Source: Cohnella thermotolerans DSM 17683 (GTDB lineage: Bacteria > Bacillota > Bacilli > Paenibacillales > Paenibacillaceae). From it: a stretch of 64,000 nucleotides of DNA. Positions 39,148 to 43,524 of this stretch are shown here, piece after piece. The stretch is from the NCBI RefSeq assembly GCF_000429825.1, contig NZ_AUCP01000001.1, positions 248,001 to 312,000 of the forward strand, in the 5' to 3' direction. How positions within the stretch are numbered: position 1 is the first letter of the stretch; each line of letters opens with the position of its first letter. Below the pieces are notes generated by a model. That model saw only the letters and a list, made by a program, of their open reading frames with translations, was not told where the DNA came from and did not search any database. Made by a program: the position numbers and the translations under genes.

Positions 39148-40134
39148 TCAATTGTTGGAAAAAGCGCCGAAATCCCCCTGCAGCACCGCCGTCAGCATCC
39201 GGTAGAACAGCCGGTAATCCGCCTCCAGGACGACCTCCGCGTTCGGGCCGGCGCCCGTCCAGGCCGGCGTGTTCTCGGGAGCGGGCCGCGTATCGACGGC
39301 GCTGAAGCCCCGGTTCGCCTCGCTCTGGCATTCGATCTCCACCCGGTAACGGCCCGATCGGACGATGAGCTCCGGGCGAAGGCACATCGCGATCGTCACG
39401 GAATCGGGATGGGTGACCCCTTCCAACCCGTTCGCCAGGTTGAACGCCAGCGCTTTGCGGTTGACCTGGTGATAGAACCTTGCGATCGGCGTGTCGATCG
39501 CCTTCAGCGCCTCGAGATCGTTCCCGCCGACAAGCGCGTACCGGCAGCAGACGTCCCAGCCGACCATCGTGATCGGGAAGCCGCCCTCGAAGACGATTCG
39601 CGCCGATTCGGGATCGACGTAGAAGTTGAACTCCGCCGTCGGCGTGATGTTGCCCCGAAAGTGGCAGGAGCCGCCCATAACCCACAGCCGTTTGATTTTG
39701 CCCGCAATGGACGGGTCCAGCATGTAAGCGACCGCGAGATTCGTCAGCGGACCGTGGGCGACGATCTCGAGCTCGCCGGGCGACTCGTTCACCAGCCGGA
39801 CGATCGCGTTCGCGGCATGCTCGGCTTCGGCCTGGATCGCGGGCGGCGGGAATCCGGAATCGCCCATCCCGTCCGCACCGTGCACGTAAGCGGCCTGGAC
39901 CAGGGGCCGCAGGAGCGGGCGGTCACAACCTCGATAGACCGGCACCTGCCCGCTCCTTCCCGCCCGCTCCACCGTCAGGAGCGCATTCGCCGTGCATTGT
40001 TCGACCGGGATGTTGCCCATCACGGTCGTAATGGCTTCTACCCGCACGCCGGGCCATAGCAGCCCGAACAGGAGCGAAGTGACGTCGTCCCCCGCCGTAT
40101 CCGTATCGATGATCAAACGTTTGCTCGTCTCCAA
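39148..40134 (-). CDS. Inosine-uridine preferring nucleoside hydrolase
   Basis: The 328-residue hydrolase has the Ca-binding N-terminal motif IIDTDTAGDD (8-17), ITTVMGNIPVEQ, IVAHGPLTNLAVA and LWVMGGSCHFRGNITPTAEF, then VGWDVCCRY. These are the conserved blocks of the IunH/RihA-C family that cleaves ribonucleosides to ribose and base. The start is a TTG at 40134 with GGGAGGAAG upstream. Substrate preference (purine or pyrimidine) is not clear. It is a single gene. Confidence 0.94.
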   Translation of the reverse strand: METSKRLIIDTDTAGDDVTSLLFGLLWPGVRVEAITTVMGNIPVEQCTANALLTVERAGRSGQVPVYRGCDRPLLRPLVQAAYVHGADGMGDSGFPPPAIQAEAEHAANAIVRLVNESPGELEIVAHGPLTNLAVAYMLDPSIAGKIKRLWVMGGSCHFRGNITPTAEFNFYVDPESARIVFEGGFPITMVGWDVCCRYALVGGNDLEALKAIDTPIARFYHQVNRKALAFNLANGLEGVTHPDSVTIAMCLRPELIVRSGRYRVEIECQSEANRGFSAVDTRPAPENTPAWTGAGPNAEVVLEADYRLFYRMLTAVLQGDFGAFSNN

Positions 40135-40280
40135 GTTTCTTCCTCCCGCTGTCGTTCAGTTCGGCGGCGAAACGCGCCGGCGCGTTCTTCCCCGTCATTT
40201 CCATTATAAAGGACGACGGGCGGCTTGGCTGCTTCCCGTTCCGGCTCATCTGCGGAAGGGCCGTCAGCTCCCGGCTTCCG

Positions 40281-41009
40281 TCAGCTTCGCATGGCGATGG
40301 CGTTGCCGGAACCGTACCGCTTCAGCCCGCGGCCGAACAGCCAGGCGCCGGCCAGACAGCTGCCGACGGCCATCGCCAGCGCGCCGGCTGCGAAGGCGGG
40401 GTCGAAGTCGCGCAGCAGTCCGATCGGCAAATAGCTGATGAAGCCGGCGGGAACGATCGAGAACAGCGCGATGCGCGCCATGCCGCGGAAAATGTCGGCC
40501 GGATACGTCGTCAGCGAGACGAAGCTGTTGAACACCTGCGACGCAATGCCTTCCGAATTGCCCAAGTAGAAAGCGAGGCAGCCGGCAATAAGCATCACTC
40601 CCATGAACAGCAGGCCGCTGATGAGCAGGCCGAGCGCGAATGCGCAGGCGCCGGCAAGCGAACGGTCGCCAACCCATGCGTATATGGCGAGCCCGAACAA
40701 CAGGTCGCCCGCCGCCGTCACCGACATCCGGCTTGCCAGCACACCCAGCAGCACCGGCTTCGGCTGGGACAGGTAGACGTCGAGCTGGCCGGACGAGACG
40801 ATGGCGGCGATCCGGTGGAAATTGCCGAACAGCACGCTCGCCCAACCGAAGCCGCCCGCTCCTACCGCCCACAGCATCATGACATCCCGGAGCTCCCAGC
40901 CGTTCACGACGGGAAACCGGTTGAAGAACAAGCTCCAGAAAAACAGCCATAGCAAATTGTTCACGAACATCATGCCGGCCAGCAGCGCGAAGCTGAGCCG
41001 GTATTCCAT
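40281..41009 (-). CDS. ABC-2 type permease (COG3694-like)
   Basis: At least 242 residues with six predicted helices. It is the second membrane component of a three-gene exporter with the genes at 41118 and 41936. The nearest ATG is at 41009 (MEYRLSFALL), but it has no ribosome site. The frame stays open upstream to a TAG near 41113, encoding GIVRFLLTSWKVNLAAAMEY, which looks like the true family N-terminus (a short amphipathic lead before the conserved MEYR). No ATG, GTG or TTG exists in that extension, so either a rare start is used or a base is wrong. Function: paired export permease, substrate unknown. Confidence 0.8.
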   Translation of the reverse strand: MEYRLSFALLAGMMFVNNLLWLFFWSLFFNRFPVVNGWELRDVMMLWAVGAGGFGWASVLFGNFHRIAAIVSSGQLDVYLSQPKPVLLGVLASRMSVTAAGDLLFGLAIYAWVGDRSLAGACAFALGLLISGLLFMGVMLIAGCLAFYLGNSEGIASQVFNSFVSLTTYPADIFRGMARIALFSIVPAGFISYLPIGLLRDFDPAFAAGALAMAVGSCLAGAWLFGRGLKRYGSGNAIAMRS

Positions 41010-41117: not shown

Positions 41118-41939
41118 TTATCCTCCGTTGACATACAGCTTCCTCACTCCTCTCCGGTACATGAAGGCGACGAGCGCCCCGAGAACGGCGATCCAGCCGA
41201 TTTGAACGGCCGCGAATCGCAGCAGCATCGCCCCGTCGTAATGGACTGCCGCCCGAGCGGGCAAGTACAGCGCGGCCTGAAAAGGAAGCCAGGCGCAAAC
41301 CCGTTGCAGCCATCCCGGCATCAGATCGACCGGGAGCAGCATGCCGCCGATCGTAAATTGCAGCTTCTGCAGCACGAACTGCAGCCCGGCCGTCTCCTCC
41401 ACCCAGAACGCGCACAGCGCGACGGACGCGTTCAGCAGAAACGCTACGGTCAAAGCGCCGAGGCTGAGCGCCATAAAGCCCGGCCACCCGAAGCCGAAGT
41501 CCGGTGCGCCGACGAACGACCACGCGACGGCGCTGCCGACCAGCAGATGGACGGCGCAGCGAAAGGCCGCTTCGGACAGAAACGCCGAATAATGATAGCC
41601 GAGATAGGACATCGGGCGGATGAGGCGCACCGCGATGTCCCCGCTTTTGACCTCTTCCTCGACCTTCGCGGTCAAGGGCGGAGCGGCCATCGTCAGCGAT
41701 TCGGTGAACACGAGATACCAGATAATCTCCTTCATCGTGAAGCCGGAGATGACCTTCGCCGAGTCCCCGCCGTAAGCGGCCGTCCACAGCTGGACGAACA
41801 CGAATAGAATGAGCAAGAGAAACGAGGAACGGAGCAGAAAATCGGTCTTGTACGCAAGCTGCTGTTGAACGGTCAGCCGCGCCACCGCTTCCGCCTTGCG
41901 TCCGGACGCCGCCCGCAGGACGAATCGCCAACCTGTCAT
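41118..41939 (-). CDS. ABC-2 type permease (COG4587-like)
   Basis: The 273-residue membrane protein has an N-terminal amphipathic lead with LTVQQQLAYKTDFLLRSSFL, then about six helices. Conserved MKEIIWYLVFTESL and GDIAVRLIRPMSYLGYHYSA stretches are typical of COG4587. The ATG at 41939 (GGAGGCGGGAGC upstream) overlaps the ATPase stop (ATGA). It forms a heteromeric exporter with the neighbouring permease; the order ATPase-permease-permease is conserved in many Firmicutes and Actinobacteria. Confidence 0.88.
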   Translation of the reverse strand: MTGWRFVLRAASGRKAEAVARLTVQQQLAYKTDFLLRSSFLLLILFVFVQLWTAAYGGDSAKVISGFTMKEIIWYLVFTESLTMAAPPLTAKVEEEVKSGDIAVRLIRPMSYLGYHYSAFLSEAAFRCAVHLLVGSAVAWSFVGAPDFGFGWPGFMALSLGALTVAFLLNASVALCAFWVEETAGLQFVLQKLQFTIGGMLLPVDLMPGWLQRVCAWLPFQAALYLPARAAVHYDGAMLLRFAAVQIGWIAVLGALVAFMYRRGVRKLYVNGG

Positions 41940-42943
41940 GCTCCCGCCTCCGTCTCTTGGCGCATGCCGTAGATATGTTTGATCGTCTCTTCCAGCGGCG
42001 GGTCCTCGACCGTAATGTCCTCGAGGCGAACCCGGCCGATCCACGTGGCCAGCACCTGCTCGATCGCCGTCCGCCGGAGATCGACGGCCACCGTCAACGT
42101 CCGCCCTTCCGCGCGGACGACGCGCGCTCCGTCCGGAAGCGCCAGAGCCGCATCCGACACGGGATCGGCCAACGTAACGTTAATTGTCTTGCGGTTCAGA
42201 ACGTCCCGCTTCATCCGCTCGACCGGCTCGTCGAGCAGGAGGCCGCCGTGATGGATGACGACGACGCGCGAGCACAGCTCCTCCACGTCGCCCGCATCGT
42301 GGGACGTCAGGAAGACCGTCGTCTCTTCGCTGCGGTTGCGCTCCCGGATCAACTCGCGGATGCGCTGCTTCACGACGACGTCGAGCCCGATCGTCGGTTC
42401 GTCGAGGAACAGCAGCTGCGGACGATGAAGGAAGACGGCGGCGATCTCGCACCGCATCCGTTCCCCGAGCGACAGCTTGCGGACGGGCGTATGCAGGTAA
42501 GGGCCGAGCTCGAAGCGCTCGATCAGCTCGCGGCTTCTTCGCGCGTACTCGTCGCGGCGCATTTCGTATACCCGGCCGATCAGCTCGAACGTGTCGACGG
42601 GAGGCAAGTGGTACCAAAGCTGCGACTTCTGTCCGAAAACGGCGCCGATCCGGTAAGCGAGCTCGGCCCGCTGTCTCCAGGGCGACAAACCCAGCACCTC
42701 GGCCTCGCCGGACGACGGATGCAGAATGCCCGTCAACATCTTGATCGTCGTCGATTTGCCGGCGCCGTTCGGGCCGAGGAAAGCGACCGTCTCTCCTTGC
42801 TCGACATCGAGATCGATCCCTCGCACCGCCGGCTTCGTCTCCCATTGCGGACGGAACAGGGAACGCAGGCTGCCCCCGAGCCCCGGCTCCTTCCGCTTCA
42901 CCTTGAACGTCTTGCTCAACCCTCTCGTACGAAGCGCCAACAT
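41936..42943 (-). CDS. ABC-2 exporter ATPase (COG4586/DrrA-like)
   Basis: The 335-residue ATPase has Walker A GPNGAGKSTT (57-66), the family-specific segment AVFGQKSQLWYHLPPVDTFE, signature KLSLGERMRCEIAA, Walker B LLFLDEPTIGLD and LTSHDAGDVEELC. A C-terminal 90-residue domain follows, as in COG4586. ATG 42943 follows GGGGGAG. It heads a three-gene exporter operon preceded by a candidate ykkC-family riboswitch, so its expression is probably ligand controlled. Substrate unknown. Confidence 0.92.
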   Translation of the reverse strand: MLALRTRGLSKTFKVKRKEPGLGGSLRSLFRPQWETKPAVRGIDLDVEQGETVAFLGPNGAGKSTTIKMLTGILHPSSGEAEVLGLSPWRQRAELAYRIGAVFGQKSQLWYHLPPVDTFELIGRVYEMRRDEYARRSRELIERFELGPYLHTPVRKLSLGERMRCEIAAVFLHRPQLLFLDEPTIGLDVVVKQRIRELIRERNRSEETTVFLTSHDAGDVEELCSRVVVIHHGGLLLDEPVERMKRDVLNRKTINVTLADPVSDAALALPDGARVVRAEGRTLTVAVDLRRTAIEQVLATWIGRVRLEDITVEDPPLEETIKHIYGMRQETEAGA

Positions 42944-42989: not shown

Positions 42990-43042
42990 AAAAAAGACCC
43001 CGGCCCGCTCCGCGTCGAATGCGGAACTTGCCGAAGGTCTTT
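42990..43042 (-). terminator. Expression-platform terminator of the candidate riboswitch
   Basis: On the minus strand AAAGACC ... GGTCTTT closes a long stem with inner pairings CGGC/GCCG and TCCGC/GCGGA, followed by TTTTTTG. The 5' arm shares GACC with the conserved aptamer segment GGGATAAAAGACC, giving mutually exclusive folds. Confidence 0.8.
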
Positions 43043-43140
43043 TATCCCTACGGTGTAGCGCGGCGCCTTGCCGCCAGCCGGTCTCGCTCGGTTCGCCCGC
43101 CGGGTCGCCCTCCCGCGGCGTCGGATCCCTAGAAACCCTT
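43030..43140 (-). ncRNA. ykkC/yxkD-family riboswitch aptamer (candidate)
   Basis: Minus-strand RNA carries the class landmarks in order: TTTCTAGGGATCCG at the 5' end (about 43121-43134), GCGAACCGAGCGAGACCGG in the middle, and TACACCGTAGGGATAAAAG at the 3' end (43040-43056). These correspond to the CUAGGG.UCCG, GGUCCGAG and ACACsG.GGGAUAAAAG elements of ykkC RNAs. The sequence after GATAAAAG differs from the guanidine-I consensus (CCCGGGAG) and ACACCG replaces ACACGG, so it may belong to a variant (ppGpp, PRPP or nucleotide-binding) subclass. Because the terminator arm overlaps the aptamer 3' end, ligand binding should turn expression on. Confidence 0.72.
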
Positions 43141-43215
43141 CCGTTTGATGTAACATATTACCAGCGGAACGGCGCTTTGGCAATCCCTTTTTTGCACGAG
43201 CAACCGTTGCCCGAC

Positions 43216-43458
43216 TCAAGCGGTGTACAGCAGATCCTCCATGATCGTCAGCAGCCGCTGCCGCATCCGCTTCAACTTTTCGACCGCCCGGTCCGCCATC
43301 GGCTCCGCGCCCGCCATCTTCTTCATGACGCCGAGCATCCGGTGCGCCTCGCTGATCTCGGAAATTTCGCGGCTGAACGCCATGTGCCGGTCGTACTTCT
43401 TGACTCTGTGCAGCAGATCCGCCGTGCTTGCCCACAGTTGTTCGAAGGTCGGTGTCAT
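43216..43458 (-). CDS. Small helical protein of unknown function, 80 aa
   Basis: ATG 43458 (MTPTFEQLWASTADLLHRVK) has AAAGGA 8 bases upstream; the ATG nine bases earlier is too close. The product is fully helical and rich in Lys/Arg/Met (MLGVMKKMAGAEPMADRAVE, then LKRMRQRLLTIMEDL). It has no cysteine or membrane segment. It lies between the exporter leader and the pyrE terminator; no family recognised. Confidence 0.6.
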   Translation of the reverse strand: MTPTFEQLWASTADLLHRVKKYDRHMAFSREISEISEAHRMLGVMKKMAGAEPMADRAVEKLKRMRQRLLTIMEDLLYTA

Positions 43459-43524
43459 TGCATTCATCCTTTCCGGAACAAAGTATACCCCTTATCTACC
43501 CCCTCGGCGGCCGCTTGAAACGCA

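Follow-up and report, generated by a model that had tools for sequence, protein, structure and literature searches.

On the minus strand of the window, the 64-kb stretch of DNA that was analysed, lie the three genes of an ABC-2 exporter (an ATPase and two permeases), followed by a gene for an inosine-uridine nucleoside hydrolase (Table 1). The exporter is preceded by a leader (43150-42990, minus strand) that lies 5′ of the ATPase start at 42943. Further upstream on the same strand are pyrC, carA, carB, pyrF and pyrE, named from their translations, with a terminator-like hairpin (43550-43532) after pyrE. A 78-residue ORF (43223-43459, minus strand) sits between pyrE and the leader, and a relative (46%) occupies the corresponding position in another locus, L039.

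The leader has a promoter of its own and holds an RNA with the full ykkC fold, and the 3′ side of the aptamer is used a second time in the terminator. A preliminary description of this DNA had placed three blocks in ykkC order in the exporter leader without naming a strand; we find CTAGGGATCCG, CCGAGCGAGACCGG and ACACCGTAGGGATAAAAG in this order on the minus strand, between 43132 and 43039, and the blocks CTAGGG, CCRAG, ACAC and GATAAAAG of the P1-P2-P3 ykkC fold are present. The terminator had also been said to share the 3′ segment of the aptamer, and this holds in the MFE fold, in which the 5′ arm of the terminator is GACCUUCGGCAAGUUCCGC, the 3′ aptamer strand made up of the 3′ strands of P3 and P0. 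This terminator was not listed in a simple terminator scan of the window. The promoter matches the consensus at 9 of 12 positions, and one such promoter was found compared with 0.1 in shuffled sequences.

Table 1. Features of the exporter locus and of the leader RNA.
Feature	Position	Strand	Basis or detail
Promoter	43155..43183	-	-35 TTGCCA 43183-43178, 17-nt spacer, -10 TAATAT 43160-43155
Predicted ykkC subtype 2a-like (ppGpp) aptamer with add-on helix P0	43021..43149	-	R2, RF00442, covariation
P0	43143-43139 with 43026-43022	-	CGGAA/UUCCG
P1	43137-43132 with 43085-43080	-	
Position-49 equivalent	C43086	-	numbering mapped in this analysis
ACACC	43056-43052	-	
P3	within aptamer 43021..43149	-	CCG/CGG and AGG/CCU
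Position-96 equivalent	U43035	-	numbering mapped in this analysis; counted back from P3 CGG
Intrinsic terminator (expression platform)	42990..43040	-	MFE fold; U-run 42995-42990
ABC exporter ATPase (NatA-like)	41936..42943	-	PF00005, 2.9e-27
ABC-2 permease 1	41118..41942	-	PF06182, 5.1e-11
ABC-2 permease 2	40281..41009	-	PF06182, 2.9e-28
Inosine-uridine nucleoside hydrolase	39148..40134	-	PF01156, 8.9e-84

These elements recur in orthologous leaders. Sixteen Cohnella leaders have a near-invariant promoter, P0, P1, ACACCG and tail in common. Across the 51 family members compared, a looser pattern, applied without a control, placed a 17-nt spaced promoter at the equivalent position in 50, and a hairpin followed by a run of at least 4 U was present in 50, with the 3′ strands of both P0 and P3 paired in 46 of these 50. 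The 5′ arm of the terminator is nearly fixed and its 3′ arm drifts, a pattern that a double role of the 5′ arm, in terminator and aptamer, would predict. Counts out of 51 omit L167, which is missing its 5′ half, and the relics L166 and L168; L170 and L172 are of the guanidine-I type.

At gathering cut-offs, a search of the 64-kb window with Rfam returned five tRNAs and nothing else. At a relaxed threshold, the guanidine-I family RF00442 was the sole ykkC family to match the leader, over its full length and with 25.7 bits (E 0.0095 in 351 bases, E 0.032 in the genome), which falls below its gathering score of 63 bits. The same model yields three strong matches elsewhere in this genome, and a second band of weak matches across 37 Cohnella genomes. 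This group of exporter leaders goes undetected by the ykkC model of Rfam when its cut-off is applied. Two further RNAs, the BCAA-linked 2a RNA L174 and the exporter-linked L242, likewise have no Rfam match at gathering cut-offs, indicating that annotation at these cut-offs will miss at least part of the riboswitch class.

Single-sequence folding energy is only modestly low (z -2.18), with 5 of 200 shuffles folding as well. In an alignment of 58 family sequences, L167 included, that was fitted to the structure, 98.5% of cells pair. Its covariation score was reached by 0 of 500 shuffles, its 7 pairs changed on both sides by 2 of 500, and its 23 further pair types by 69 of 500. P0 pairs in 99.3% of cells and changes from C-G to U-A in 4 of the 54 rows with letters, and P1 shows U-A, C-G and A-U at one position. 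The pairs of P1a and P1b and three of the six in P3 are invariant and therefore uninformative; at the remaining P3 pairs, no double-sided change was seen in the 58 sequences.

We fetched 20 loci from the Cohnella search. One of them, L053, is a good RF00442 match and was unused; the other 19 comprised 18 weak matches and the window's own leader. The same RNA lies 5′ of the same exporter in 16 of the 19, and L045, L048 and L050 do not hold this RNA. A covariance model built from the 16 Cohnella leaders (R1) gave 62 matches of at least 72 bits in 344 genomes of the family. A second model (R2), built from 18 RNAs from outside the family that are linked to BCAA, glutamate-synthase or Liv genes, gave 63 matches of at least 54 bits in 338 family genomes, one of which, G021:C2, looks PRPP-type and is preceded by a purine riboswitch. 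The exporter ATPase follows 61 of the 62 strong exporter-type leader matches in these 338 genomes, the other running off its contig in G616. The preliminary description had proposed a survey of other operons of this exporter; the same leader precedes it at all 61 testable strong matches, each with NatA-like ATPase and ABC-2 permease genes behind it. By name, the relatives belong to Cohnella, Paenibacillus and Thermobacillus. Eleven that we fetched from among the many weaker R2 matches were three more PRPP-type tandems and eight guanidine-I type RNAs.

Leader and exporter also travel together within the genus, as 17 of 37 Cohnella genomes have permease 2 and exactly these 17 have a strong leader match. 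In the Cohnella genome G017 a leader relic is present and the exporter is missing. This relic (L166) and a second copy in G353 (L168) both lack the 5′ half and have no exporter behind them, which suggests that the switch decayed as the exporter was lost.

Approaching the linkage from the exporter, 62 named loci with a related permease included 15 with R2 matches above 55 bits. L252 scored 31 bits and L270 14.4 bits, the latter at chance level. No leader was present at L257, L258, L260, L261 and L305 (36-42% identity) or at more distant loci, including Streptomyces and four Paenibacillus loci at 25-29% identity; the upstream stretch was missing at L283 and L302 and short at L264. Leaderless relatives indicate that the leader belongs to one branch of the exporter family and not to all of it.

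We assigned the RNA to a subtype by its diagnostic residues. In the cited passages of PMC6031431, position 46/49 splits guanidine-I RNAs from subtype 2 and position 96 splits PRPP from ppGpp RNAs, and subtype 2a is marked by a pyrimidine at 49, a position 96 that is absent or not G, the helix P0 and ON behaviour. Position 49 is C in 51/51 family members, and position 96 is U in 49, C in one and A in one, with G in 0/51. Among RNAs with recognised targets, the 2a set (BCAA, glutamate-synthase or Liv genes) has C at 49 in 19/19 and G at 96 in 1/19 (L184), and the PRPP set has a pyrimidine at 49 in 52/52 and G at 96 in 51/52 by script, the remaining RNA, L081, being a misparse whose tail has G. 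The PRPP set consists of 52 loci with a recognised purine-related downstream gene, except L238; L216, L222 and L237 (repeats) and L220 were left out, and L070, L084, L086, L090, L094 to L098 and others were outside the set and unlabelled. Judged by its sequence, the window RNA is of the ppGpp type by both published rules.

The residues bear directly on whether the leader could be a guanidine-I riboswitch controlling a guanidine exporter, as its sole Rfam ykkC match, its overall fold, its terminator arrangement and its exporter target might suggest. At position 46/49 the window has C where 27 of 34 guanidine-I-type RNAs, parsed by script, have A (the others G in 4, C in 1, T in 1 and 1 unread), and it has ACACC and not ACACG, CACG being present in 34/34 guanidine-I-type RNAs. 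P0 is present, the genome already has its three good RF00442 matches, and R2 gives guanidine-I RNAs 13-47 bits (14 sequences). We consider this reading almost certainly wrong.

Model comparisons point the same way. R2 scored 73.0 bits on the window leader (E 1.2e-19 over 505 kb; E 8.8e-23 unfiltered in 351 bases), 21.6 bits higher than R3, a PRPP model from 13 purine-gene-linked RNAs whose predicted structure is without P0. Of the 52 family sequences, 51 scored higher with R2 than with R3 and one (L165) scored the same with both; R3 exceeded R2 in 36 of 36 held-out purine-type RNAs, among them L238, which has no recognised gene, and L087 (R3 100.7, R2 64), held out since it was too long for R3 training. 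R2 and R3 do not part all known 2a from 2b RNAs, as R3 outscores R2 on the ilvE-linked L177, L185 and L194, all R2 training RNAs, and on the glutamate-synthase-linked L184, and about equals it on L175 and L176. The preliminary description hinged on a significant score to some ykkC model and named the search that would supply it; that search gave 25.7 bits with RF00442, 73.0 with the ppGpp-set R2 and 51.4 with the PRPP model R3, RF00442 alone falling below gathering. Its suggestion that variant positions lead away from guanidine-I and toward a subtype-2 ligand, with ppGpp, PRPP or nucleotides as candidates, is upheld by C at 49 in 51/51, by the lack of G at 96 and by R2 over R3 in 51/52.

L184 combines a glutamate-synthase target with the PRPP-type G at 96 and a higher R3 score; either the position-96 rule has an exception here, or L184 is a PRPP riboswitch at a gene where none would be expected.

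The pyrC-carAB-pyrF-pyrE genes directly upstream on the same strand would fit a PRPP riboswitch (subtype 2b), and PRPP and ppGpp aptamers are very similar: by the cited passages of PMC5912903 and PMC6031431, the leader has the fold, P0, C/U at 49 and ACACC in common with 2b, and R3 still gives it 51.4 bits. Against this, G is absent from position 96 in 51/51, R2 leads R3 on the window, the leader has its own promoter with a terminator-like hairpin after pyrE, and its target is not purine synthesis or uptake. The family's PRPP-type RNAs are instead found in tandem with a purine riboswitch before xpt-pbuX-like genes (4 loci). We judge a PRPP riboswitch here to be very improbable, and residues and models led us to reject it along with the guanidine-I reading.

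At the four tandem loci (L307, L308, L309 and L310, in G021, G029, G057 and G590), a purine riboswitch (RF00167) is followed by a PRPP-type ykkC RNA, and the genes behind resemble xpt and a xanthine/uracil permease. R2 scores these RNAs at 50-62 bits, close to the scores of the exporter-linked group and in one case among them.

Searching 398 genomes of the phylum with R1 returned many ykkC RNAs, and we examined 29 loci from outside the family. Nineteen of them lie 5′ of ilvE, ilvN-like, ilvC, glutamate synthase or Liv binding-protein genes, named from translations. Two, in distant Bacillota, lie 5′ of the same exporter with a 2a-type leader, and both hold all three genes (ATPase 54/52%, permease 1 35%, permease 2 39/42% identity). 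One locus precedes an ORF without clear identity. The 2a-type RNAs L176, L189, L198, L193, L175, L200 and L192 stand before other genes, again named from translations: sodium-coupled transporters, a GltS-like carrier, peptide permeases and an S9 peptidase-like gene.

The phylum search also bears on subtypes 2c (NDP) and 2d (orphan), which the cited passages of PMC7266159 associate with NUDIX/HAD hydrolases and EamA/TauE transporters, respectively. The closest labelled relatives of the window RNA, compared with 2a, 2b and guanidine-I RNAs, are 2a, and we give a 2c or 2d RNA scant probability.

Several features of the family depart from the 2a pattern. Across the family P1b reads AACC, at a place where the 2a and 2b sets have an invariant G (GACC or GTCC), and its pairing must be shifted in register; this G does not appear among the class-defining features in the passages cited here. 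The P3 internal loop is short and nearly closed. The PRPP structure has G at both 104 and 105, where the family reads CAAG/AAAG, leaving one G in the tail; a similar tail is found in the 2a RNAs L174, L177 and L183, and other 2a RNAs have AGG or GGG. The changes in P1b, P3 and tail could be neutral or could alter the ligand.

If they altered the ligand, the leader would be a ykkC variant particular to this clade, descended from the ppGpp class and now sensing another purine nucleotide, such as pGpp, GDP, a GMP-like compound or another NDP. The clade-wide change in P1b and the nearly closed P3 loop favour such a variant, as do the nucleoside hydrolase that follows in the window and in L039 and the presence of the exporter alone behind strong family matches, which leaves no target of known function to confirm the ligand. 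However, the equivalents of G6, G48, C49, C75, C77 and C78, which are reported to make PRPP or ppGpp contacts, are kept under the mapping made in this analysis, P3 and tail are almost identical in the livK-linked L183, two other genomes have a leader with ordinary P1b at the same exporter, and the hydrolase is not conserved. We hold this variant to be unlikely. It is equally doubtful, in our estimate, that the exporter leaders of the Paenibacillaceae are a separate ykkC subtype, which would descend from the ppGpp class, with P1b and P3 remodelled, and bind another guanine nucleotide or a related compound; were this true, the ligand would also point to the substrate of the exporter. A new ykkC subtype had been considered at one stage, prompted by unlikeness to guanidine-I RNAs in the genus survey, and it was reduced to this minor reading because GACC, CAAG/CAGG tails and P0 proved common to BCAA-, glutamate- and Liv-linked RNAs in the phylum search.

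Together, the fold, covariation, diagnostic residues, terminator overlap and gene linkage, all computed, make it probable that the leader is a ppGpp riboswitch (ykkC subtype 2a) acting as a transcriptional ON switch, with 2c and 2d compared by description only. Its ligand would be (p)ppGpp, and we infer the ON direction by analogy, from the class and the terminator overlap. In the proposed switch, transcription would begin a short way before P0. In the ligand-free RNA, the 3′ strand of P3 and P0 would pair downstream to form the terminator, and transcription would stop before the exporter genes. As (p)ppGpp rises in the stringent response, it would bind a pocket between P0 and P3, with contacts modelled on a published mutant structure; the guanine of ppGpp would pair with the conserved C of ACACC (position 75), since position 96 has no G to do so. 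The bound aptamer would then keep its 3′ strand, no terminator would form, and the three-gene ABC-2 exporter would be made.

The export pump is thus probably turned on during starvation. Such a switch would tie the exporter to the stringent response through RNA alone. Among the strong family matches examined, the exporter is the only target of this riboswitch, and one riboswitch with one transport operon would make a clean test system.

The ppGpp riboswitch, ykkC subtype 2a, was reportedly described by Sherlock et al. in 2018. It is treated in the cited passages of PMC5912903, PMC6031431 and PMC7266159, and those of PMC5912903 include natA-transporter-, BCAA- and glutamate-synthase-associated RNAs in the subtype. 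The 'natA' named there would be the present exporter type, as its ATPase is NatA-like, and a link from the riboswitch class to the exporter has thus probably been noted already, as 2a RNAs with natA transporters, in the cited part of that paper. We regard the leader as a new member, well conserved, of a riboswitch class that is already known; among the papers searched, none joined 'ppGpp riboswitch' with 'Cohnella'. It resembles the known ppGpp riboswitch in ykkC fold, P0, pyrimidine at 49, ACACC, lack of G at 96, shared terminator and NatA-like exporter target, and differs in the AACC of P1b and shorter P3 internal loop of the window clade and in the exporter alone being found behind the family's strong matches.

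For the exporter itself, we take ABC_NatA_like to be the CDD name of the ATPase, and COG4586, COG4587 and COG3694, the numbers given in the preliminary description, presumably apply to its genes. No paper among those searched named two or more of these COGs. The best NCBIfam match of the ATPase is drrA (215.8 bits, below the cut-off of 312.45); all 25 matches listed are below cut-off and give no pointer to a substrate. Permease 2 has no relative in PDB at E ≤ 10 by sequence. Inferring a substrate from solved structures or names was accordingly rejected. Our guess is an amino-acid- or peptide-related compound, since most other genes behind 2a-type RNAs concern amino-acid supply.

Gene neighbours were also rejected as a route to the substrate, with pyrE, a lipoprotein-like ORF and the nucleoside hydrolase (2 loci) pointing to none. 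The hydrolase is possibly co-transcribed with the exporter, and neither a promoter nor a terminator was found in 39900-40400. Its copy in L039 is 90.5% identical, and tblastn finds it at none of the other loci, some of which end early; it is not a conserved part of the exporter unit and carries little weight. By tblastn, pyrE is upstream in 8 of 16 Cohnella loci and in 13 of 35 further family loci, whose upstream stretch is short. Mechanical clustering of ORFs, reading-frame artefacts on the other strand aside, placed other clusters in at most 6 of 54 loci. Behind the exporter, 8 of 54 loci have the lipoprotein-like ORF (for example at 5331-6410 of L133, in leader-strand orientation), and in several loci tblastn picks up an additional ABC ATPase (27-33%) there.
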